64,000 bases of DNA from Malachius bipustulatus (taxonomy: Eukaryota; Arthropoda; Insecta; Coleoptera; Melyridae). The DNA lies in NCBI GenBank assembly GCA_910589415.1, contig OU342630.1, positions 28,863,867 to 28,927,866 of the forward strand. Direction: 5' to 3'. Shown here piece by piece: positions 1,019 through 50,690 of this stretch; the first letter of the stretch is position 1, and every line of letters starts with the position of its first letter. The notes under the pieces were generated by a model. The model was not told the origin of the DNA, made no database searches, and saw nothing but the letters and a program-made list of their open reading frames with translations. The position numbers and the translations under genes were made by a program.

Positions 1019-1487
1019 TGTGACGTCTCTCCTTTTTTGGAGAGGACGTCTTAATTATTGGGTTAATTTATTTCTTAACCCATGCCTTCAGACGGGATAT
1101 TTGGGTGGATTTACACAAATGATACACGACATTTTTTTGAAAAATAACGTAAATTTATTATTTCCTTAAAATGGTAAACGTAAAATAATCATTCAATGCT
1201 TGGTGAACGCCCGGTATATCTTCCAGGCCCAGCGCCCGGTAAAAACGGTGTCCCGGCTGCCGCTCGACGGTCGGACTACGCCAGTAGGTCGAGGAGGACA
1301 AGTTTTTCTGCGGAGTTCAGTCAACTGGAAAATAAAATGTTAGTGGTGCAATATGAGACGAGAACGGAATGATTTTACTATTATTTTTATCGCGTCGATA
1401 AAAGAATGAGAAATGAACTGAATAAAACTCTTGATTAATATTATTTACATGAAATTTATTATGGTCTCAATTCATGAAAAATTCCCT

Positions 1488-1493
1488 TTTATT
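1488..1493 (-). terminator. Candidate poly(A) signal in LTR
   Basis: AATAAA on the minus strand, about 530 nt downstream of the predicted transcription start; the second LTR has the same site at 4563-4568. Another AATAAA lies near 1455-1460. Which one is used cannot be told from the sequence. Confidence 0.35.
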
Positions 1494-1589
1494 TAAATGA
1501 ATAATTTAATTAATAAATTAGGCCGGGGGAAAATTCTATTTACATGAAATGACCACGGGTTTTATCATTTGATGAGTGATTGGGCTCGT

Positions 1590-2018
1590 CTTCGATTGCG
1601 TAACGGTCAATTCTCGTTCGCAATCGAAGGTTGACCTTCTACGTGCCTGGCTAACTCGTCGAGTCAATTCTTCGACTCGTTAGGAAGTCACTGGGGGAAT
1701 TATACGCTTTCTCAGTAATTAGACCAGGGACGCGAATCAATTCTTCGCTTCACCTGGGTCCACGTTCGAGACTGATAAGCTTTAGGGGGTGACGAAAGAG
1801 TATCAATTCTACTCTCTCGTGATATCCCAACTTGACTCCTGGTCAGTACCCAGGCTTCGCATTGGGGTAGGTTAAGGTGTGAGCTTGGAAGAGTCAATTC
1901 TTCTTCTTCGCTCTAGGAGAAGTCCCGATCAGTACTCGGGCCTCTGGGCAAGGGGGTGAGCTATAGATGGCGGACCGGCTATCCTAGATCAGTTCTCTAG
2001 GAAGGCCAGCTGCCATCT
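1590..2018 (-). promoter_or_regulatory. Array of eight hairpins with a shared 7-nt loop
   Basis: Plus-strand coordinates of hairpin and loop: 1590-1629 (loop 1607-1613), 1651-1683 (1664-1670), 1724-1757 (1737-1743), 1792-1820 (1803-1809), 1838-1854 (1843-1849), 1881-1913 (1894-1900), 1924-1940 (1929-1935), 1965-2018 (1989-1995). Five loops read TCAATTC, two TCAGTAC and one TCAGTTC on the plus strand. In the minus-strand sense RNA these are GAAUUGA, GUACUGA and GAACUGA. The stems have unrelated sequences but pair over 5 to about 15 bp, some with internal mismatches. The array begins about 27-35 nt after the TATA box, so it would form the 5' leader. The role is unknown; a binding platform for Gag or another protein (packaging, dimerisation or translation control) is inference. 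Confidence 0.75.
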
Positions 2019-2044
2019 GCTACCGTTCCTTCCATCTCGGTCCC

Positions 2045-2052
2045 TTTATATA
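2045..2052 (-). promoter_or_regulatory. TATA box of the LTR promoter
   Basis: TATATAAA on the minus strand in the 3' LTR; the copy that would drive the element is at 5120-5127. The predicted start is near 2020, at the base of the outer stem of the first sense hairpin. Confidence 0.6.
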
Positions 2053-2374
2053 GGTACCGGACGTAAACAACAACAACTTCTTATCTTGTTTTCCTATCGG
2101 CTTCGCATTTATTCGCTTGGATTTAATATTTTAATATTTCCCGCTGAATTAAATGTTGTTTCTGTTCCTTCCTAGAGGCACATTCTGTAAACAACAACTG
2201 ATACCAATATAAAAAACCTCCCTTATCTTGTTGTCGCCGATTTATCTGCTTGGATTTTAATAATTTACTACTTGAATAATTCCTACATGATTTCTTCTTG
2301 CCTTTCGTGGGAATAATATTTTGTTCAAATTATGGCGTCGCTTTCCAGCGTCGCGACGTTACTGTAACGTCACA

Positions 2375-2522: not shown

Positions 2523-2930
2523 TTAAAAACTAATCCGAGATCTTAAGAGATCCATCCTACGGCGGACGGGTATTGAACTTCCATCGTCGCTGCGTAGATT
2601 CCGCGTTATCCCTGGAAGCTTCAACGTTTGTGGCTGTACTGTAGCTGTAGCTGCTGTTGCGCTGAGCCTGACGTTGCTTGTCTGCTTGCTCGCGTCTTGT
2701 ATATACGCCGTGCGTAATTTTCCCCTGTAATTCGCCTGTGGGGCTAGCTCGCTTATTCGAGGCGGGTTTGTATCCTGCTGCACTCGTGGCGGGCTCTGCT
2801 GCATCGTCGGTAGGTTCGCAGGCGTATCCAGTCGTGTAACCTTCGTCGTGATCAGCGACGTTTGGTTTCCATTGAGGAGGCTGTTTTTCGAGGTACTTAA
2901 CCTCAGCCTGCTCTTTGCAGCACTCATCAT
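2523..2930 (-). other. Second open frame overlapping the gag C-terminus
   Basis: A 135-codon frame, shifted relative to gag, stays open across the last 370 bp of gag and runs 34 bp past the gag stop. I recognise no protease or other domain in it; it is rich in S, T, Q, P and R. It could be a leftover of a gag-pro frameshift overlap from a full-length parent, or chance openness in a low-complexity tail. Confidence 0.25.
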
Positions 2931-4011
2931 CGGTCATCATCTCTATTACATTCAGAGTGTCCATGATGTCGATCTTGGGGCCTATGTCAGTAGGTCGCTG
3001 CCTATCTTGGCGACTTTCGTGCCGATTGCCCTGTTGCTGCTGCCTATGTGACGGCGCGTAATAAGGCCTCTCTGGGCGGTCGTCCCTGTCATTGTTTCCC
3101 GTGACTGGGGTTCGTTGGAAGCGTTCTTCTTTACATTTAGCTATTTCGCTTTGGATTTGTTCGAAGTTTTGCATTAGCTGCTGCAAACCCGAAAGCGTCG
3201 TAAAATCGCTTCTACGGACATAAATTTTATACTGGGGGAGCATGTTTTTATAAACCCTTTCGAGAGTCTGGATCTCGTTCAGGTTTCCTTCCCTGCGTAT
3301 GAGGGTAAGGATATCATTAATATATGATCCCGGTGCTTCGTTGTGCTTCTGTTTTCGGTTTCTTATTACTTCTTCGAGCCTTTCGACATAGTTGGCTGGG
3401 AAGAAGTCCGTTGCAAAAATGTTTTTGAAACCTTCCCACGAGTGCCACTTGTGGGAATTGTTTCTGTGCCATAATAGCGCATCGTTTCGCAGACAGATTA
3501 TTAATGCTTGTAGCATGTGCTCCTGTGGGATGCCGAACGTTGCTCGAAGTTCCTCGAGGCGTTCTATAAATTCAGGAGCTTCAGATGACCTACCGCTGAA
3601 ATATACATTTCCTTTCTGGATAATGTTTATGGATTCCAGTGGGTAGGAGGGCCCCATGATTGTCTGTCTTTGCGTCACGTCGCTGTTGTTTTGTGGCATT
3701 GATGCAGTATGTGCGGTTGCACGCTGCATTTTTTGTATGGTTTCTTGCGCTTCTCTTAACTGTCGTTTTAACAGCTCGGTTTCGCTTACGCCTTTCTGGC
3801 TCTGCTCTTTTGGGCGAGCCCCTTGAGCTCCTTGGACAATTGACTTTAATGCGAAATGTCCTCGCAAGCGGGCTCTTAGCTCATCTAATTTTCCAGTGCT
3901 GTCGAGACCTAATTTGGTGGTCTCTTCAATAGCTTGCTCTTTAGTGAGCTGGTGTATCCACGCGCTTGTCGTAGTTTGTGCTGTCGCACCCTCCTCGTCT
4001 GAATTTGGCAT
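2557..4011 (-). CDS. gag: Gag-like protein of LTR retrotransposon
   Basis: 484 codons, uninterrupted. Residues about 17-55 resemble a SAP-type helix-turn-helix (LTKEQAIEETTKLGL, then a lysine/leucine-rich second helix). Residues about 150-310 look like a retrotransposon Gag core, with the typical tryptophan-containing helices (ALLWHRN, WHSWEGFKNIF) and a series of helices with RR and LxxL patterns. The last 170 residues are polar and disordered (QQQQGNR, RPTDIG). I see no CCHC zinc knuckle and no protease motif. Gag would assemble the particle that packages the element RNA. The start is the only in-frame methionine near the leader and lies about 60 nt after the primer-binding site, which fits. 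The reading frame being intact while pol is missing suggests Gag is kept for a reason or the insertion is recent. Confidence 0.8.
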   Translation of the reverse strand: MPNSDEEGATAQTTTSAWIHQLTKEQAIEETTKLGLDSTGKLDELRARLRGHFALKSIVQGAQGARPKEQSQKGVSETELLKRQLREAQETIQKMQRATAHTASMPQNNSDVTQRQTIMGPSYPLESINIIQKGNVYFSGRSSEAPEFIERLEELRATFGIPQEHMLQALIICLRNDALLWHRNNSHKWHSWEGFKNIFATDFFPANYVERLEEVIRNRKQKHNEAPGSYINDILTLIRREGNLNEIQTLERVYKNMLPQYKIYVRRSDFTTLSGLQQLMQNFEQIQSEIAKCKEERFQRTPVTGNNDRDDRPERPYYAPSHRQQQQGNRHESRQDRQRPTDIGPKIDIMDTLNVIEMMTDDECCKEQAEVKYLEKQPPQWKPNVADHDEGYTTGYACEPTDDAAEPATSAAGYKPASNKRASPTGELQGKITHGVYTRREQADKQRQAQRNSSYSYSTATNVEASRDNAESTQRRWKFNTRPP

Positions 4012-4073
4012 TATTATAAATTTTTAATTAGCTAAGGGTGCTAATTTTTAGGGAAAATCCCTGTATTTATTTT

Positions 4074-4091
4074 CTTTTTGCTCGGGCGCCA
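4074..4091 (-). other. Primer-binding site, possibly tRNA-Lys type
   Basis: TGGCGCCCGAGCAAAAAG on the minus strand, two nucleotides after the 5' LTR. The first ten bases match the 3' end of tRNA-Lys as used by some retroelements; the rest diverges, so the tRNA assignment is uncertain. Confidence 0.6.
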
Positions 4092-4664
4092 GTTGTGACG
4101 TCTCTCCTTTTTTGGAGAGGACGTCTTAATTATTGGGTTAATTTATTTCTTAACCCATGCCTTCAGACGGGATATTTGGGTGGATTTACACAAATGATAC
4201 ACGACATTTTTTTGAAAAATAACGTAAATTTATTATTTCCTTAAAATGGTAAACGTAAAATAATCATTCAATGCTTGGTGAACGCCCGGTATATCTTCCA
4301 GGCCCAGCGCCCGGTAAAAACGGTGTCCCGGCTGCCGCTCGACGGTCGGACTACGCCAGTAGGTCGAGGAGGACAAGTTTTTCTGCGGAGTTCAGTCAAC
4401 TGGAAAATAAAATGTTAGTGGTGCAATATGAGACGAGAACGGAATGATTTTACTATTATTTTTATCGCGTCGATAAAAGAATGAGAAATGAACTGAATAA
4501 AACTCTTGATTAATATTATTTACATGAAATTTATTATGGTCTCAATTCATGAAAAATTCCCTTTTATTTAAATGAATAATTTAATTAATAAATTAGGCCG
4601 GGGGAAAATTCTATTTACATGAAATGACCACGGGTTTTATCATTTGATGAGTGATTGGGCTCGT

Positions 4665-5093
4665 CTTCGATTGCGTAACGGTCAATTCTCGTTCGCAATC
4701 GAAGGTTGACCTTCTACGTGCCTGGCTAACTCGTCGAGTCAATTCTTCGACTCGTTAGGAAGTCACTGGGGGAATTATACGCTTTCTCAGTAATTAGACC
4801 AGGGACGCGAATCAATTCTTCGCTTCACCTGGGTCCACGTTCGAGACTGATAAGCTTTAGGGGGTGACGAAAGAGTATCAATTCTACTCTCTCGTGATAT
4901 CCCAACTTGACTCCTGGTCAGTACCCAGGCTTCGCATTGGGGTAGGTTAAGGTGTGAGCTTGGAAGAGTCAATTCTTCTTCTTCGCTCTAGGAGAAGTCC
5001 CGATCAGTACTCGGGCCTCTGGGCAAGGGGGTGAGCTATAGATGGCGGACCGGCTATCCTAGATCAGTTCTCTAGGAAGGCCAGCTGCCATCT
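4665..5093 (-). promoter_or_regulatory. Hairpin array, second copy in 5' LTR
   Basis: The same eight hairpins as 1590-2018, shifted by 3,075 bp. In a full transcript the array would occur at both ends if it lies in R, which the TATA position suggests. Confidence 0.75.
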
Positions 5094-5119
5094 GCTACCG
5101 TTCCTTCCATCTCGGTCCC

Positions 5120-5127
5120 TTTATATA
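5120..5127 (-). promoter_or_regulatory. TATA box of the active LTR
   Basis: TATATAAA on the minus strand. Transcription would start near 5095 and run through the hairpin array toward the gag gene. Confidence 0.6.
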
Positions 5128-5665
5128 GGTACCGGACGTAAACAACAACAACTTCTTATCTTGTTTTCCTATCGGCTTCGCATTTATTCGCTTGGATTTA
5201 ATATTTTAATATTTCCCGCTGAATTAAATGTTGTTTCTGTTCCTTCCTAGAGGCACATTCTGTAAACAACAACTGATACCAATATAAAAAACCTCCCTTA
5301 TCTTGTTGTCGCCGATTTATCTGCTTGGATTTTAATAATTTACTACTTGAATAATTCCTACATGATTTCTTCTTGCCTTTCGTGGGAATAATATTTTGTT
5401 CAAATTATGGCGTCGCTTTCCAGCGTCGCGACGTTACTGTAACGTCACAAGATTAACAGTAGCACGATTTTTATTTGCATTTATTTTGTATTTGCATTTT
5501 GAAAAACGTGACATCGATCACTGTTATATTCCGGATACGTTACGAGTTAGCTTGGAGCCTGAATATCCTGAATCGGGCGATAGCTATGCATAATAAGGCA
5601 TAACTTCGATTTCTAATAGAATTTTAAATACCTACCTAAGTACTTACTATTTTACGTTTTTTATA

Positions 5666-6615
5666 CAGGGTGATTCAGGTTTTACCTACTTAACTCTAGG
5701 GTACGATAGAGAATCGAAAAATAATATGAGTTTGCTTCATGAATTATATTCGTGAAATGATTCGTTAAGAAAATACAGGGTGTTGAAGTTTTAAGAAAAA
5801 ATTCGTATTTTTGAAATATAAAAAAAGGCTGATTGAAATAATTTGAAATTTTGAACAGTAGTTGTGCTAATTGAAGTACATGGTTTAATGCTTCCGATGA
5901 AAAATTCTTCACTCCAGTGGCAGAGATCTGGGTGTGTTGTTATCTTTTTTATTAAATAATTTCTGACTTTAATGCAAATGGTTATTTATGGTAGAGATAC
6001 CTTGTTTTGTTTAGAAGAGAAAAGTCATCTTACGTTTTTGTTGTAGAGCGCACTGTTTTCAAGATATTCCACAATGTTGGCACTCATGCAAGCTTTTTGT
6101 AATGCAATACGGTTCAATAACGATCACAAAAATGATTAACTTCTGGAAAAACTCAATAGCATTGATTTTTATGATATTTTACCTCGTACGGGTTCCTACA
6201 TTGTGAAGTATCTCGGAAACAGTGCATCGTAGGACAAAAACGTACGATGACTTTTCTTCTCTAAACAACATGAGGTATCTAACTAAAATTACAAATTTGC
6301 ATTAAAGTCAGTGGCGTGCTAATTATTCATTAGAAAAGGTAAGAACAAGCCCAGATCTCCGCCACTGGATTGAAGAATTTTTCATCGGAAGTATCAAATC
6401 ATGTAAAATTAGCACAGCTTCTGTTCAAAATTTCAAATTATTTCAATCAGCCAATTTTTTTATATTTCAAAAATACGAATTTTTTCTTAAAACTTTAACA
6501 CCCTGTATTTTCTTAACGAAGCATTTCACGAATATAGTTCATGAAGAAAACTCATATTATTTTTCGATTCTCTATCGTTCCCTAGAGTTAACAAGGTAAA
6601 ACCTGAATCACCCTG
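5666..6615. mobile_element. Palindromic foldback MITE, 950 bp
   Basis: The ends are CAGGGTGATTCAGGTTTTAC and its inverse, each flanked by TA, the usual IS630/Tc1/mariner target. The arms pair over most of the length; the halves around 5900-6000 and 6300-6370 also match inverted. The 76-aa open frame at 5682-5912 is part of an arm, not a gene. A diverged relative lies at 59450-60010. Confidence 0.85.
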
Positions 6616-6911
6616 TATAACAAGTTTAATAATGCAGACGCAAAACAGTAAAATCGAAAAGTTTATCTGACGTTTTCGAAATATTAATTTCAATTAAAGC
6701 ACACATTCACATTGTTGCCAATCTTATATTGTTATCCTCGATATACCTACCTACATTTTATACCATAATGTAGGTAAAAAATATAATAATATAATATAAT
6801 CTATGACCTACTTTCAATTTCTACAATTCTCAATTGTTGTTATTTGTAAGTTTTTCTAATTCAATCATTAGTTTTCTTTGTAAAGTTTTCAAATAAATAA
6901 AAGTAGTAAAT

Positions 6912-34312: not shown

Positions 34313-37300
34313 TTGATGGCAGACGATAGCTTGAATACTAGAGCCCATCATGGATTAAACAACAACAAAATCCACAAAGATCGTCACTGTGAAGACTGGA
34401 CCGATTCCTTGGAATACTCCCAGTCATGCAGCTCTAAAGAATTGACACTTGGCTCGAATTTGACCATATTACAACTAAACATTGAAGGAATATCTAAAGA
34501 TAAGTGCCACTTTTTATCTAAAATTTGCAATGATAAAAATGTAGATATAATACTTCTTCAAGAAACGCACACAAATTCTAATGAACAAATTTTATCTCGA
34601 GGTGTTATTCCAAGTTATACACTTGTTGAATCATTAAACAGTGCAATACACGGATGTGCTACTTATGTTAAGGAAAATATTCACAATCCTGAAATCATAT
34701 ATAATAATATTTATGAAGGTATATTTATAATTGTCATAAAAGTTTCAGATACTTTCATTTGTAATTTATATAAACCTCCAAAAGTTCAATGGCCAGAAGA
34801 TTTTCCTATAGTTTATGGACACCCAGTTATTTATGCAGGAGATTTTAATTGTCATCATAATTCTTGGGGTTATGATCTCAACGACCGAAATGGCATTGCT
34901 TTGTCCAACTGGATTGAGAGAAATAATTATCATTTGAAATATAATCCGAAAGATAAAAAAAGTTTTTATTCTTCTAGATGGCGTAAAAATTATAACCCAG
35001 ATTTATGCATAATATCTAAAGACAATGATGATATACCATTACCTATTATCAAGGAAGTATTACAACACTTTCCACATAGCCAACACAAGCCGACGTTAAT
35101 TAGGACAGGAATTCGTATTGAATATATTAATTCATTACAAAAACCAAGATGGAATTTTGGCAAAGCAAACTGGAAAGAATTTAGAACTCAAATAGACAAT
35201 AACATAAGATGGATTAAGCCCACTTATAATAACTATTCTAGATTTGTAGGTATCATAAAAGCAACAGCTAAAAGAACAATACCTAGAGGATTTCGACAAC
35301 AATATATTCCTTGTTGGACCAAAGAAACTCAGGAAATCTATGAATCATATAAAAAAGCGCCCACTACAGAAGCAGCAAATACAATTTTGAATTCTCTGAA
35401 CAATTCACGGAAAGAAAAATGGAATACTTTAATGGAAAACATGAATTTCACTCATTCTAGTAGAAGCAGTTGGAACCTACTTAGCAAATTAGGAACTACT
35501 AATCAAATAAAACAGCAAAAATATAATATTTCACCTAATTCTATTTCTTCTAGAATAGTGAAAGTTTCTAATTCTGTTTTAGTATCCAAAGAAGAACAGA
35601 AAAACATTAAAAATAAATTAAGAAAACAAAGAAAAAATGCCATTAATTCTGACACATTGTCTAAACCATTTGAATTAAAAGAACTTAAAGCAGCAATAAA
35701 TTCCATGAAAAATCGAAAATCACCTGGTTTCGATGGTATTTTAACTGAATTCTTAAAAAATCTGGGGAGTTGTTCATTAAAATGGCTACTTTCTTTTTTT
35801 AATAACATTCTGGTTTCAGGTCGACTACCTGAAGATTTCAAAAAAGCAAAAATTAGCGCAATTCTAAAGCCTGGGAAACCAAATGATGACTCTTCAAGCT
35901 ACAGACCTATTGCTTTGCTTAGTATCACTTATAAAGTACTGGAAAAACTTTTATACAATCGTCTATTACCAATTGTTGATGAAAAATTACTTATTGAACA
36001 AGGAGGATTTCGGCCAAACAGAAATACATGTGACCAAGTTTTGGCGTTGACAACCCACATTGAATGTGGCTTTCAAAGAAAATTAAAAACAGGAGCAGTC
36101 TTCCTAGATCTATCTGCAGCATACGACACTGTGTGGAAAGAAGGTCTCTTACATAAATTATATAAAACCATTGGTTGTAAGACGATTATGAATCTATTGG
36201 AAAATATGCTATCAGACCGAAAAATAAAAGTTTTCGTAAACGAAAAGAGCAGTAAATACAGAATCTTAAATAATGGTCTCCCACAAGGTTCTGTTTTATC
36301 TCCACTGCTATTCAATATTTACATTAGTGATTTGCCTGCAACCAAATCTAGAAAATTCATATATGCCGATGACATTATTTTAACTTACCAAAACAGCGAA
36401 TTTAATTTATTAGAAGAAACGCTGTGCTCTGATTTGAAAATCATGAATGATTACTTTAAGAAATGGCGTCTTTGCTTAAACTCTTCAAAAACAGAAGTTA
36501 CATGTTTCCATCTCAATAACCACCAAAAATCTAAAAAGCTAAATATAACTTTCAACGGATCGTCACTGAATCATAATTTCAATCCAAAATATCTTGGTGT
36601 GACTTTGGATATATCTTTAACCTATAATCAACACTTAGAAAAAGTGAAACAAAAATTAAAAACAAGAAATAATATTCTATACAAACTTGCTGGAACAACT
36701 TGGGGAGCCAATGCAAAAACAATTCGCACATCAGCTCTTGCACTTGTTTATTCAACAGCGGAATATTGTGCACCCGTATGGCTCAACAGTGTACATCAAT
36801 CAAAAGTGGATATTCAACTGAACCAAACATTACGAATTATTACTGGAACAATTTCCTCAACTCCGATCCCTTGGTTACCTGTTTTGTCAAATATTGCTCC
36901 ATCTAATCTCCGAAGACAACAAGCAACACATAAAATCATGAATAAATACCGAACATTTCCAGATGATTTTTCAATAACATCGGACCTGAATAATCTTCCA
37001 ACAACGAGATTAAAATCAAGAAGACCTGTGTGGCTAGAAACATACCTGGATCGACCATTTAAAATTGAAGATGAATGGAGAAATGATTGGCGAAATAAAA
37101 GTGTTTCTTTATTCAACAATACTTTAATCGAAGATCCTTCATCATTAGTCAACGGTTTTGAAATCAGAAGGAAAGTCTGGGTACAAGTAAATCGCTTAAG
37201 AACAGGACACGGTAGATGTAATTCAATGTTACATAAATGGAATTTAATACCAAGCGCTTCCTGTATTTGCGGACATCCTGAAGAATCCATCAATCACATT

Positions 37301-37402
37301 GTCAATGAATGTCCTTTAACCAAATTTTCTGGAGGTTTTCAAGCAATTCATGAAATTTCCACCGAAACAATAGACTGGTTACAGAATTTGAAGCTCTTGT
37401 AA
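34313..37402 (+). CDS. LINE ORF2: endonuclease and reverse transcriptase
   Basis: 1,029 uninterrupted codons. Residues 49-270 are an apurinic-type endonuclease: LQLNIEG (N56), LLQETH (E84), GDFN (D177) and a final H258 in HSQHKP, where many LINEs have SDH. The reverse transcriptase follows, with YRPIALLSITYKVLEKLL, GGFRPNRNTCDQ, LDLSAAYDTVW (D599), GLPQGSVLSP and YADD at 684-687. A zinc-knuckle-like tail at 964-1002 has TGHGRC, then CICGH and HIVNECPL. The protein nicks target DNA and copies LINE RNA onto it. It resembles jockey-superfamily proteins of the BS/X-element kind; I cannot fix the clade. No ORF1 precedes it: only 100 bp separate it from the TIR. It is the longest intact gene in the window. 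Confidence 0.9.
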   Translation: MMADDSLNTRAHHGLNNNKIHKDRHCEDWTDSLEYSQSCSSKELTLGSNLTILQLNIEGISKDKCHFLSKICNDKNVDIILLQETHTNSNEQILSRGVIPSYTLVESLNSAIHGCATYVKENIHNPEIIYNNIYEGIFIIVIKVSDTFICNLYKPPKVQWPEDFPIVYGHPVIYAGDFNCHHNSWGYDLNDRNGIALSNWIERNNYHLKYNPKDKKSFYSSRWRKNYNPDLCIISKDNDDIPLPIIKEVLQHFPHSQHKPTLIRTGIRIEYINSLQKPRWNFGKANWKEFRTQIDNNIRWIKPTYNNYSRFVGIIKATAKRTIPRGFRQQYIPCWTKETQEIYESYKKAPTTEAANTILNSLNNSRKEKWNTLMENMNFTHSSRSSWNLLSKLGTTNQIKQQKYNISPNSISSRIVKVSNSVLVSKEEQKNIKNKLRKQRKNAINSDTLSKPFELKELKAAINSMKNRKSPGFDGILTEFLKNLGSCSLKWLLSFFNNILVSGRLPEDFKKAKISAILKPGKPNDDSSSYRPIALLSITYKVLEKLLYNRLLPIVDEKLLIEQGGFRPNRNTCDQVLALTTHIECGFQRKLKTGAVFLDLSAAYDTVWKEGLLHKLYKTIGCKTIMNLLENMLSDRKIKVFVNEKSSKYRILNNGLPQGSVLSPLLFNIYISDLPATKSRKFIYADDIILTYQNSEFNLLEETLCSDLKIMNDYFKKWRLCLNSSKTEVTCFHLNNHQKSKKLNITFNGSSLNHNFNPKYLGVTLDISLTYNQHLEKVKQKLKTRNNILYKLAGTTWGANAKTIRTSALALVYSTAEYCAPVWLNSVHQSKVDIQLNQTLRIITGTISSTPIPWLPVLSNIAPSNLRRQQATHKIMNKYRTFPDDFSITSDLNNLPTTRLKSRRPVWLETYLDRPFKIEDEWRNDWRNKSVSLFNNTLIEDPSSLVNGFEIRRKVWVQVNRLRTGHGRCNSMLHKWNLIPSASCICGHPEESINHIVNECPLTKFSGGFQAIHEISTETIDWLQNLKLL

Positions 37403-45741: not shown

Positions 45742-47730
45742 CAGTGTGTCCCCAGATGGACCTAACTATACTTATAACCTTATTTTGCATCTTAGGAAAA
45801 AAAGTCATTCTTTAGAAAAAGTTTTGCTTTATCTAGAATATCTTCAGCCGCTGTCAAAATTTCGAAATAATATACAGGATGGATACAATTCATTTATTAC
45901 AGTTTTTACCATGTACAAAAGTTTATACAAAACTTATTCCACATGTTGCCCTCCTAACGTTACACATTTTTCAACAAGTGATCTAAACTAAGTATGAAAC
46001 TTAAAAAAAAAGAGTGAAAACACAGGTACATCCTACTTGAAAGAAAAGTGATATTAACTGAAATTTCAACAGAAAGTCAGTGATAACTAATTAGAAGTTT
46101 TATCTCTAAGTAGATTTGTTTATCTTTATTAGGATAAATAAGTAATACAATGGATACATTTTGCCAAAACAAATGATTTACTCAAATTTATATCGATTGG
46201 TGTCTACTATACAGGGTGGCTCAGCGAAAAGGTACCAGGCCTAATAACTTGAAAACTGAAGATGTACGCGAAAAACGCCAAAACAGGTCGATTTTGTTAG
46301 CGAGGGGGGCATATTTTCGTGACAAATTTAACTACCCAAGTTCACCCCCTTGGTAGGGGTAGCTACCCCTTTGCGTATCATCATAGGGAACAGATATCGG
46401 GTGATACATCATTTGAAAGCCACTCGAATTCTCTTTACAACGATATCCAAAATTTTGGGTTTCGCTCACATATAGGGTGGCCCAACGAAAACGCAACTCG
46501 CCTTAATAACTTGGAAACTGAAGATGTACGCGAAAAACGCCGAAACAGGTCGATTTTGTTATCGAGGGGGACATATTTTCGTAACAAATTTACTTACCCA
46601 AGTTCACCCCCTTGGTAGGGGTAGCTACCCCTTTGCTTATCATCATAGGGAACAGCTATTGAGTGAGACATCATTTGACAGCCACTTGAATTCTCTTTAC
46701 AACGATATCTAACATTTTGTGTTTCACTTACATACAGGGTGGCTCAAAAAAATGTTATTGTTGGGCCAACCTGTATGTAAGCGAAACCAACCACATACAT
46801 CATTTGAAAGCTACTTGAATTCTCCTAACGATATTCAACATTTTGGGTTTCACTTACATACAGGGTGGCTCAAAAAAATGTTTTCGTTGGGCCAACCTGT
46901 ATGTAAGCGAAACCCAAAATGTTAGATATCGTTGTAAAGAGAATTCAAGTGGCTTTCAAATGATGTCTCACTCAATAGCTGTTCCCTATGATGATAAGCA
47001 AAGGGGTAGCTACTAGCTACCCCTACCAAGGGGGTGAACTTGGGTAAGTAAATTTGTTACGAAAATATGTCCCCCTCGATAACAAAATCGACCTGTTTCG
47101 GCGTTTTTCGCGTACATCTTCAGTTTCCAAGTTATTAAGGCGAGTTGCGTTTTCGTTGGGCCACCCTATATGTGAGCGAAACCCAAAATTTTGGATATCG
47201 TTGTAAAGAGAATTCGAGTGGCTTTCAAATGATGTATCACCCGATATCTGTTCCCTATGATGATACGCAAAGGGGTAGCTACCCCTACCAAGGGAGTGAA
47301 CTTGGGTAGTTAAATTTGTCACGAAAATATGTCCCCTCGCTAACAAAATCGACCTGTTTTGGCGTTTTTCGCGTACATCTTCAGTTTTCAAGTTATTAGG
47401 CCTGGTACCTTTTCGCTGGGCCACCCTGTGTATTCAATATTCAATATTAAATTGAAATTATGTTGTCTCTAGCAAAGAATTTATTTAGTTAAGTGCTACG
47501 GTATTGGTGAAGTGCTATATCGATATGCAATTGAACTTTTTAGTAGGAAATATCCTTGATAAAAACTGTTATAAATGAATTGTATCCACCCTGTATATTA
47601 TTTCGAAATTTTGACAGCGGCTTAAGATATTCTAGATAAAGCAAAACTTTTTCTAAAGAATGACTTTTTTTCCTAAGATGCAAAATAAGGAAATTTATAA
47701 GTATAGTTAGGTCCATCCGGGGACACACTG
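45742..47730. mobile_element. Middle foldback (level 2 of the nest)
   Basis: The ends are CAGTGTGTCCCCAGATGGAC and a near-inverse, within TATA-like flanks. The arms at 45742-45910 and 47570-47730 carry the same open stretch read in opposite directions, so the 106- and 62-codon frames there are not genes. Confidence 0.8.
46212..47428. mobile_element. Inner palindrome, 1.2 kb (level 3 of the nest)
   Basis: Two arms of about 540 bp are almost exact inverses around a centre near 46830. Each arm holds two copies of the 262-bp unit seen at 12000-12520. The ends are CAGGGTGGCTC and the inverse; the left flank is TA, while the right flank is TG (probably mutated). No gene. Confidence 0.85.
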
Positions 47731-47799
47731 TATAAGGTAGTCATTATGATGTAGACAGGAAGAAGAAAAACAACACGAAAGAGCAAATGTGACCTTATA

Positions 47800-47816
47800 A
47801 TAATAATAATAATTTA
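47800..47816. repeat. (TAA)n microsatellite
   Basis: A short run of taa units within the nested region. Confidence 0.6.
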
Positions 47817-48183
47817 TTGTTCACTGATGGATTGATAAATGGAATACACCTACATAATAAGTATTATTTTTTTCAGCTTTTCAGCTCCATAGGTAATACA
47901 ATTCTTAGTGATGATCAGTTTGATAAAAAAAAAAAACATTCACTCAACATTTAAAACTAATATTCATTGAATGTTTACAAATCTGTCGTTTTTCACATTG
48001 GCTAAATGTTCATTTTCAAATGTTCAGTAAACATTCATTCATAAATGTTCACTAAAGCTTAAATCTGAACATTCACTGAACATTTAAAACTAATATTCAT
48101 TGAATGTTTACGAATCTGTCGTTTCTAACATATGGCTGAATGTTCATTTTTAACATTCAGTGAATGTTCGATTGCTGCCTGGG

Positions 48184-49461: not shown

Positions 49462-50690
49462 GACCCCTCAAGACCGACCATTTTATACACGGATGCAAGT
49501 CGACTTGGTATTGCCGGCATGTTGGTCCAAATTGTTGATGGACGCGAAGTGGTCATTGGATAATATCACAGTAAACACAACCCACCAGCATTACAACGCT
49601 ATCATTCTTTTGAGCTAGAGACCTTGGCTATAGTTATTTCGGTGAAGCGTTTTCGATGCTACTTAGCAGTACGAGTACGAGACGGTATAAACGTACGAAT
49701 CTAGGTCCGAAAGGTCTAGTCCTCAAAACCTGCAGGTGGCAACTCCTTCGTTTCAACCATGATGATATTGGGCATTTCTCGGAGGAAGAAACTTTCGAAA
49801 AAATTGCAGCCAGATTCTGCTTTCCTCGAATGCGTGATTTTGTTAAGAAGTATGTGAAGTGCTGTATGCCAGCCGGAAGAAAGCCGGGATACCTTCAACC
49901 CAATTAATAGTGTTTGTGGATGCTCACACGAAATTTTGTTCCATAACGGCAGTTAAGAATACAAAATTCCGACATGTCATTCGTGAGCTAGCTAGCATCA
50001 ACAAAACATTCGGAGCCCCGAAACGAATCATCTGTGACCAGGGAAGGTTATTTGCTTCCAAAGCCTTTAAAACCTACTGCGCAGAGAAAAAGATTATGGT
50101 TCATGCTGTGGGCATGCCCAGGGGGAATGGACAAGTCGAAAGTTATAACCGCACCATCACAGAATCACTAGCCACAATTGGTGCAGATCAGGGTGACTCA
50201 GCTTGGGATGAAAATGTAGCAAACATTCAACTGGGTCTCAATAATACTGTAAACAAGTTTCTTGGGGTGACGCCTTCCGAAGTGCTTTTGGGATACCGTT
50301 CAGGTCCAGATAATCACACTGATCTTAATGATGATTTGGAGACGACCGTGGACGTAACAGCTATCCGTAAAAGCATTTTTGAAAATTGCTTACAAGCTCA
50401 AAATACTCAGAAAGCACATTTTGATGTCCACAGTAGATCATCTAAATATTATCAGGTCGGAGATCTTGTGCTGGTGAAAATTTCATATATCGCGGGTCAA
50501 GGCAGCAGCAAGAAATTGTTGCCCAGATGGAAAAGATGGAAAGGGACTTTCCGAATCACGAAAATCCTAAAGAATCACCGTTACGAAGTCGCTGAAATTC
50601 CGGGGACTGTGAGATCAAGAATATCCTAAAAAGGAGTATATGCGGCGGATCATATCAAGAAGTTTTTGACACCCCTTCAGTACAGGTCAG
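49462..50690 (+). pseudogene. pol: Ty3/gypsy-like pol remnant: RNase H and integrase
   Basis: RNase H piece about 49485-49640: PTILYTDASRLGIAGMLVQ, then YHSFELETLAIV, with one stop between. The tether and the rest of RNase H are missing. The integrase starts near 49735 with an HHCC-like zinc region (FNHDDIGHFSEEET, then KKYVKCC). The catalytic core is in a 256-codon frame (49859-50629): FVDAHTKF (D21 of that frame), CDQGRLF (D60), GNGQVESYNRT (E94). I count 33 residues between the last two, two fewer than the usual D,D35E. A chromatin-tether-like C-terminal stretch (LPRWKRWKGTFRITKIL) follows. A frame shift separates the zinc region and core. No RT, gag or LTRs could be assigned. Confidence 0.85.

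Follow-up and report, generated by a model that had tools for sequence, protein, structure and literature searches.

Hairpins with unrelated stems and a common heptaloop class form a selected RNA element at the transcript start of long terminal repeat retrotransposons in Malachius bipustulatus

Both long terminal repeats (LTRs) of a gag-only retrotransposon in the beetle Malachius bipustulatus contain eight consecutive hairpins whose stems are unrelated in sequence and whose loops belong to a single class. The element, here called family A, is read from the minus strand of a 64,000-nucleotide stretch of contig OU342630.1 (assembly GCA_910589415.1, positions 28,863,867 to 28,927,866), hereafter the window. 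What keeps such an array, on which strand and in which molecule does it act, and what would read it? We find that selection keeps it as an element of the sense RNA, located at the 5′ end of what is transcribed from the LTR, in family A as well as in sister families of the same genome. We further propose, with a probability of about one half, that it is a multivalent protein-binding site read by the Gag of the same lineage, that is, a packaging or assembly signal.

An earlier note, made from the sequence alone, had reported eight hairpins with 7-nt loops, and all of them were found again at the same positions. On the plus strand the loops read TCAATTC at 1607, 1664, 1737, 1803 and 1894, TCAGTAC at 1843 and 1929, and TCAGTTC at 1989. 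Counting G-T, they are closed by 5, 6, 5, 6, 5, 7, 5 and 7 contiguous pairs (loops 1607, 1664, 1737, 1803, 1843, 1894, 1929 and 1989, respectively), and the G-T closing pair noticed on the plus strand at loops 1607, 1664 and 1894 is indeed there. A second copy of the array lies 3,075 bp downstream, in the other, identical LTR. Folding shows one hairpin type, made up of a short perfect inner stem and a heptaloop G-N-R-N-U-G-A; beneath the stem there is often a purine mismatch or a 3′-side bulge. The fixed loop class of the note thus stands, and GNRNUGA, in sense RNA, is the wording that fits better once relatives are included. The hairpins are as follows.

Positions 1590 to 2018, minus (sense) strand: hairpin array in the 3′ LTR (local folds, arm pairing, whole-array fold, motif scan).
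Positions 4665 to 5093, minus strand: array of the 5′ LTR, identical to the one above and opening the sense transcript (LTR identity, covariance model, motif scan).
Positions 1982 to 2002, minus strand: hairpin h1, sense loop GAACUGA, 7 bp (fold, arm pairing).
Positions 1924 to 1940, minus strand: hairpin h2, sense loop GUACUGA, 5 bp (fold, arm pairing).
Positions 1887 to 1907, minus strand: hairpin h3, sense loop GAAUUGA, A-C at the closing position in sense RNA (fold, arm pairing).
Positions 1838 to 1854, minus strand: hairpin h4, sense loop GUACUGA, 5 bp (fold; stem probability 0.54-0.59).
Positions 1797 to 1815, minus strand: hairpin h5, sense loop GAAUUGA (GUAUUGA in many copies), 6 bp, or 11 with G-U in sense (fold, copies).
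Positions 1732 to 1748, minus strand: hairpin h6, sense loop GAAUUGA, 5 bp (fold, arm pairing).
Positions 1658 to 1676, minus strand: hairpin h7, sense loop GAAUUGA (GUAUUGA in many copies), A-C closing in sense (stem probability 0.42-0.46).
Positions 1602 to 1618, minus strand: hairpin h8, sense loop GAAUUGA, A-C closing, 3′-side bulge, long outer stem (fold, arm pairing).

The loop of h1 has a possible long-range match, on the sense strand, to TCAGTTC at 1421.

That the array arose by chance, or is what remains of decayed, non-functional tandem duplications, is hardly credible. Cognate arms are paired at 40/40 positions, the sole such arrangement among 40,320 re-pairings of the arms. In 3,000 dinucleotide shuffles, a test that applies to 7-nt loops, the largest hairpin family (stem of at least 5) had three members at most, against eight in the array; when loops of 5 to 10 nt were all admitted, no family exceeded five hairpins in 400 shuffles. 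Equally good folding of shuffled sequence had been named beforehand as an outcome that would speak against the array, and in hairpin count the real array lies beyond all shuffles. Within the two arrays, all 16 sense matches to GNRNTGA in the window form hairpins, versus 2 among the remaining 219, counted over both strands. When the eight hairpins were stacked as an alignment, the covariation score and the paired cells exceeded those of all 500 shuffles; the number of pairs with changes on both sides, 5/5, was reached in 97 of the 500. A covariance model built from the hairpins found 16 matches in the window, corresponding to the two arrays, the next match having an expectation value (E) of 1.2; trained on these same hairpins, it is informative only as to the lack of other matches. 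No Rfam 15 family passed its gathering threshold between positions 1000 and 2400, where the one chance-level match scored 21.7 bits against the 130 required. Family K, described below, does have two similar pairs of hairpins that look duplicated. Among the eight hairpins of family A, however, arm identity is 0.25 and 0.29, which is the random level, and tandem duplication of one hairpin was rejected on that ground; the conservation in family A copies and the compensation and site variation in family D, presented next, likewise tell against chance and duplication. A likeness to a T-loop or anticodon arm (5 bp and 7 nt) was considered and rejected, as the loop letters do not fit the consensus.

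The 544-Mb host genome offers copies in which the array can be compared. Array places were 96-100% identical among the best 40 of 212 candidates, which were those scored. From loci around array and Gag matches we obtained 47 extracts of the family A array (some places entered twice), corresponding to 25 distinct sequences after identical ones had been collapsed. Variants present in at least two distinct sequences affected 2/56 loop sites, both of them loop position 2 (A to U), no site of the closing pairs (0/16), one of the inner stems (1/64, G-C to G-U) and 25/293 sites in the rest of the array. The core, that is, the loop without position 2, the closing pair and the inner stem, therefore varied at 1/128 sites against 25/293 (p = 0.0014), and at 3/136 with position 2 included (p = 0.012). 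Six to eight hairpins were present within 1,500 nt upstream of 16 of the 18 A-type Gag copies. At C16:13550951-13563334, a 12-kb stretch contains several family A copies that do not all share one orientation, an arrangement suggestive of nesting or clustering.

A genome search with Gag gave 91 matches (best 88 of 1,234 candidates scored), including those of sister families B, C, D and K. The Gag of family B is 53-54% identical to that of A over its full length, the sequence examined is gag-only, and its leaders contain 5-6 hairpins with loops GAGUUGA, GAGAUGA and GCGUUGA. Family C has a Gag fused to a protease and 61-63% identical to that of A over about residues 1-326, closer than those of B or D. 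Its copies (L053-L062), with LTRs that begin TGTGACGTTAC like those of A, a similar Gag and no array, are a natural control. The Gags of families D and K are 36-38% identical to that of A. One D copy codes for a Gag with a zinc knuckle, in a frame of 1,410 amino acids, and for a reverse transcriptase (RT) and RNase H like those of Ty3. When an RT fragment from one D copy was compared with Ty3, E was 9.7e-57. The D leaders hold eight hairpins (seven in subfamily D2, six in D3) with loops GAACUGA, GUACUGA, GCAUUGA, GAAUUGA, GUAGUGA, and GUAUUGA or GUAAUGA; these arrays are paired about 5.86 kb apart (best 40 of 952 candidates scored), indicating that they stand in both LTRs. In family K, the leaders have ten loop sites, and local folds placed the heptamer in a loop at 10/10 of them in copy L072 and 9/10 in L071. 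A 4-bp stem is often followed in D and K by a single 3′-side bulge, mostly A, and then by an outer stem, and the closing pair is U-G in the sense RNA of six of the eight D hairpins.

The arrays of A, B, D and K all fit G-N-R-N-U-G-A, and none of them was antisense in the 19 stretches scanned. In blastn comparisons with 14 other leaders, the family A leader matched none. A shared loop motif on free stems, such as a packaging array should have, was thus found across families. The earlier note had placed the array in a gag-only element, which is correct for this one; the array is not peculiar to gag-only elements, because family D, coding for both Gag and reverse transcriptase, carries it as well.

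Conservation was also examined in family D. Covariation was studied in 15 sequences from three subfamilies, identical sequences being collapsed and K copies excluded; in the fetched stretch L085 was without loop H4 and L077 without H1 and H2, and two motif matches that overlapped H4 and H5 were disregarded. The stems showed six compensatory double changes (three in H4, two in H5, one in H7) and seven changes on one side only that leave the pair intact. When partners were slid by 1-3 places, compensatory changes fell to 0-1 and only 30-42% of the cells were paired, against 89% in the true register. Site variation was scored on a second alignment, not picked column by column, of 14 sequences (12 distinct), from which the K copies and L077 were excluded. 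Sites varying in at least two sequences numbered 0/40 at loop positions 1, 3, 5, 6 and 7, 4/16 at positions 2 and 4, 0/64 in the inner stems and 21/140 in the spacers (p = 0.030 for any variant, 0.005 for variants in at least two sequences). Thus it is the shape of the RNA that is kept and not the sequence of its stems, two loop letters being free. Selection on RNA shape with a fixed loop, as first proposed from the single copy, is therefore supported by compensated stem changes and by loops and inner stems that vary less than the rest; the array withstood the comparison with related copies, in which uncompensated stems and loops no better conserved than their stems had been looked for.

The earlier note had left room for an antisense transcript, because three closing pairs are G-T on the plus strand and A-C in sense RNA. 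The plus strand could act as such an RNA or as single-stranded reverse transcript of plus sequence, and taken hairpin by hairpin the strands hardly differ, with summed local energies of −159.9 (plus) and −158.7 kcal/mol (sense). Whole-array folding, on the other hand, favors the sense RNA: folding 1590-2018 on both strands gave the deeper value in sense (z −8.0 versus −6.1), and mean stem probability is 0.86 in sense versus 0.52 in plus. The best sense fold of the 429 nt holds all eight inner stems, with loop closure widened or altered in three. In 150-nt windows from 1525 to 2124 (25 shuffles each), z ranged from −2.1 to −4.1 in sense and reached 0.0 and 1.2 at 1750-1974 in plus. When the hairpins were held and the spacers shuffled, the sense value was never reached in 120 trials and the plus value was reached in 18 (the difference in 3), so that the natural spacers favor sense hairpins beyond 120/120 shuffles and plus hairpins beyond 102/120. 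Beneath the stems, the mismatches in sense RNA were seven G-A and no C-U (p = 0.002, a pattern spotted post hoc). Together with the 3′-side bulges of the relatives and the U-G closing of family D, both in sense, these results disfavor the antisense option, and we consider a functional plus strand improbable; the concern stands insofar as per-hairpin stability is equal on both strands.

A similar argument applies to a function at the DNA level, for instance inverted repeats around the site of a DNA-binding protein, or cruciforms. It would agree with the inner pairs 2-5 being Watson-Crick in 32/32 cells, with G-U absent on either strand. The bulges and U-G closing pairs of the relatives are, however, sense-specific, and the array follows directly after a TATA box, within transcribed sequence, which makes this explanation very improbable. 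The box is located as follows.

Positions 2045 to 2052, minus strand (5120 to 5127 in the 5′ LTR): TATATAAA box in the 3′ LTR, identified from the sequence, with a predicted start site near 2020.

A TATA-like box precedes the first loop by 57 nt in family A, 68 in B and 44 in D, suggesting that the array opens the RNA and lies in R. The placement of the array at the opening of the sense transcript, proposed earlier, is thus supported by the TATATAAA box, which starts 57 nt before the first loop, the start site itself being predicted. The sense AATAAA signals of the family A LTR, at 1154, 1455 and 1488, are all beyond the array; an RNA that stopped at one of them would thus have the array at each end. 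From the assumed start to gag, the leader measures about 1,081 nt and contains nine short upstream open reading frames (ORFs), the longest of 17 amino acids.

The remaining features of the element are the following.

Positions 1019 to 2374, minus strand: 3′ LTR (LTR comparison).
Positions 4094 to 5449, minus strand: 5′ LTR (LTR comparison).
Positions 1015 to 1018, no strand: target-site duplication AGAT, left copy (element boundary).
Positions 5450 to 5453, no strand: target-site duplication AGAT, right copy (element boundary).
Positions 2557 to 4011, minus strand: gag ORF, 484 amino acids, no zinc knuckle (ORF list and domain search).
Positions 4080 to 4091, minus strand: presumed primer binding site TGGCGCCCGAGC, directly after the 5′ LTR.

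The family A element is a non-autonomous Ty3/Gypsy-type LTR retrotransposon. Its two LTRs have TG...CA termini, a short target duplication flanks the element, its Gag matches the Retrotrans_gag domain (E 1.1e-5), and pol is absent, the sense ORFs of at least 80 amino acids between the LTRs being gag and one shorter overlapping ORF. The LTRs, 1,356 bp each, are identical in sequence, which indicates a recent insertion. We take the primer binding site to be of the tRNA-Lys type. The adjoining LTR end (1022-1050 and 4097-4125) forms a strong hairpin in sense RNA, with arms GACGTCCTCTCC and GGAGAGACGTC around an A6 loop, and a fold z of −6.1 at 4000-4149, among the lowest in the element, covers it. 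In U3, a diverged repeat with 124-bp spacing (2037-2198) extends over the TATA region, the box being lost in the upstream copy. Zinc knuckles are present in seven of the nine database relatives of the family A Gag (alignment), of which a named one is from Gonioctena, and absent from the family A Gag itself. Its C-terminal 155 residues (window 2557-3000, minus strand), which had no relative in the protein database, stand in place of the knuckle region, and the tail of the B Gag is similar and likewise knuckle-free. Viral contigs and contigs of prokaryote genomes searched with Gag and the Gag alignment gave no match, nor did viral contigs searched with an LTR-end and primer-binding-site pattern.

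What, then, reads the array? Gag is the most likely candidate, since the 5′ end is where retroelements have their packaging signals and since elements without pol need recognition by the machinery of others; as it codes for neither reverse transcriptase nor integrase, the family A element must use the machinery of a coding relative. Gag would gather on the many hairpins, mark the RNA for packaging and seed particle assembly. A packaging label shared by A and the coding family D would be expected to look like this, with one loop class carried on unrelated stems. With two of seven loop letters variable, fixed pairing to another RNA seems unlikely, and GNRNUGA could adopt a GNRA-like fold in which three letters are extruded.

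Several observations weigh against this reading, or against parts of it. In family D, 15 one-sided changes break pairing and three double changes do not pair, the outer stems vary like the spacers (18/80 sites against 21/140), and the loop invariance of the covariation set is partly by construction, since its sites were picked with G.A.TGA. Outside the arrays, a stretch of real sequence near 47774 reached a family of five similar 7-nt-loop hairpins, probably due to repeats. The stem probability of h3, 0.84 in the array alone, falls to 0.02 in one longer context. Two of the 18 A-type Gag copies, L037 and L042, showed no array within 1,500 nt upstream. In family K, only 4-5 of the 10 loops pass the strict pairing rule, and the TATA pattern searched for had no match upstream of the array. 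An array does not accompany every close Gag: family C has none in 8/8 copies over 1.5 kb and 2/2 over 3 kb upstream of gag, which leaves a changed signal in C or a reader other than Gag. The 5′ ends of the LTRs are unlike between A/B/C and D, so D need not be the helper. The Gags of A and B are devoid of a zinc knuckle. Finally, all the families compared come from one genome, so that a host protein would account for their common loop just as well.

Such a host RNA-binding protein, many copies of which would occupy each array while Gag is uninvolved, is the main competitor, plausible though not the explanation we would choose. Its roles could include export, germ-line localization, translation, stability, and escape from or entry into small-RNA silencing. 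A single genome with a single loop class, when identity between the A and D Gags is only about 37%, would be readily understood in this way, as would the missing array of family C beside a Gag close to that of A, and the knuckle-free Gags of A and B. Against the host protein stands that arrays were found only in leaders of this Gag lineage, although few unrelated elements were covered, the rest of the window giving two isolated matches. We know of no binder of a GNRNUGA heptaloop, a point on which the literature was not searched.

A role for RNA alone, in which kissing loops between array hairpins dimerize two genomic RNAs, appears quite unlikely. Seven of the eight loops of the family A element do contain a 4-nt palindrome, and Ty1 dimerizes via kissing hairpins according to the part of the source available (PMC5454406). 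The palindromes, however, lie in different registers, GNRNUGA is not self-complementary, and by inspection palindromes are absent from the B loops and from most D and K loops. With most of the relatives' loops non-palindromic, self-complementary loops do not appear to be kept by selection, and a kissing-loop dimerization signal was rejected as a candidate.

Returning to Gag as reader, we can speculate, tentatively and with the odds rather against it, that GNRNUGA arrays are a portable RNA passport: LTR families whose leaders are unrelated would keep the same heptaloop class at the 5′ end of their RNA, or re-evolve it on new stems, so that the packaging machinery of coding relatives recognizes gag-only elements, with hairpin number setting the strength. 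Outside yeast, little is known of how LTR retrotransposons choose RNA for packaging or of how non-autonomous elements borrow machinery. In this genome a single compact RNA code, carried on unrelated stems, is shared by at least four families, among them a gag-only element whose LTRs are identical and a family coding for its own reverse transcriptase. The code provides a short, cheap binding target, a 20-nt hairpin, for telling a packaging label from a host factor, and would supply a sequence rule for spotting such elements elsewhere.

Other repeats and retroelement sequences lie elsewhere in the window. Just outside the element, at 5658-6623, there is an inverted repeat with 169-nt arms, 95% complementary, and more arms inside, resembling foldback elements or miniature inverted-repeat transposable elements. 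An intact ORF of a long interspersed nuclear element at 34313-37402 (1,029 amino acids, endonuclease and RT) is 64% identical to its best database match, and its named relatives are from Tuta, Diaphorina and Cyamophila. A 256-amino-acid ORF at 49859-50629 reads as a putative retroelement integrase, and tandem repeats with periods of 262, 126 and 25 bp occupy 46209-48100.

A literature search of open-licence PubMed Central found no precedent for shared-loop hairpin arrays in LTR retrotransposons. The TR-GAG elements of plants are non-autonomous LTR elements that consist of LTRs and a gag ORF only, as the family A element does; hairpin arrays are not known from them, the literature on that group not having been searched. 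The Drosophila gypsy insulator, an array of su(Hw) sites working as double-stranded DNA, likewise places repeated protein sites near the transcript start of an LTR element, whereas the covariation and bulges described here point to RNA. Among LTR-element RNAs, those of Ty1 and Ty3 have structured 5′ ends whose cis-acting domains comprise dimerization, packaging and priming signals; in the sections of the sources available they use palindromes, kissing loops or a pseudoknot, in place of a shared-loop array (PMC5454406, PMC11381356). Retroviral Psi, in the 5′ leader, also combines several stem-loops at the 5′ end of genomic RNA, with Gag as reader, but these are different stem-loops plus a dimerization site, and not one repeated hairpin class, as far as the excerpt available goes (PMC8876502). 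Many hairpins with a fixed loop motif and free stems are found in small RNA viruses. The coat protein of satellite tobacco necrosis virus prefers AXXA loops, assembly being indifferent to stem sequence in the portion of the source available (PMC3593212), and enteroviruses have purine loops, again from partial texts (PMC7793301, PMC6281560). These viral signals, as described there, are spread along the genome and have smaller loop motifs, whereas the arrays of M. bipustulatus are clusters of 5-10 heptaloop hairpins at the 5′ end of LTR-retrotransposon RNA, with a predicted reader. In its mode of action, the array would nevertheless resemble such dispersed packaging signals.
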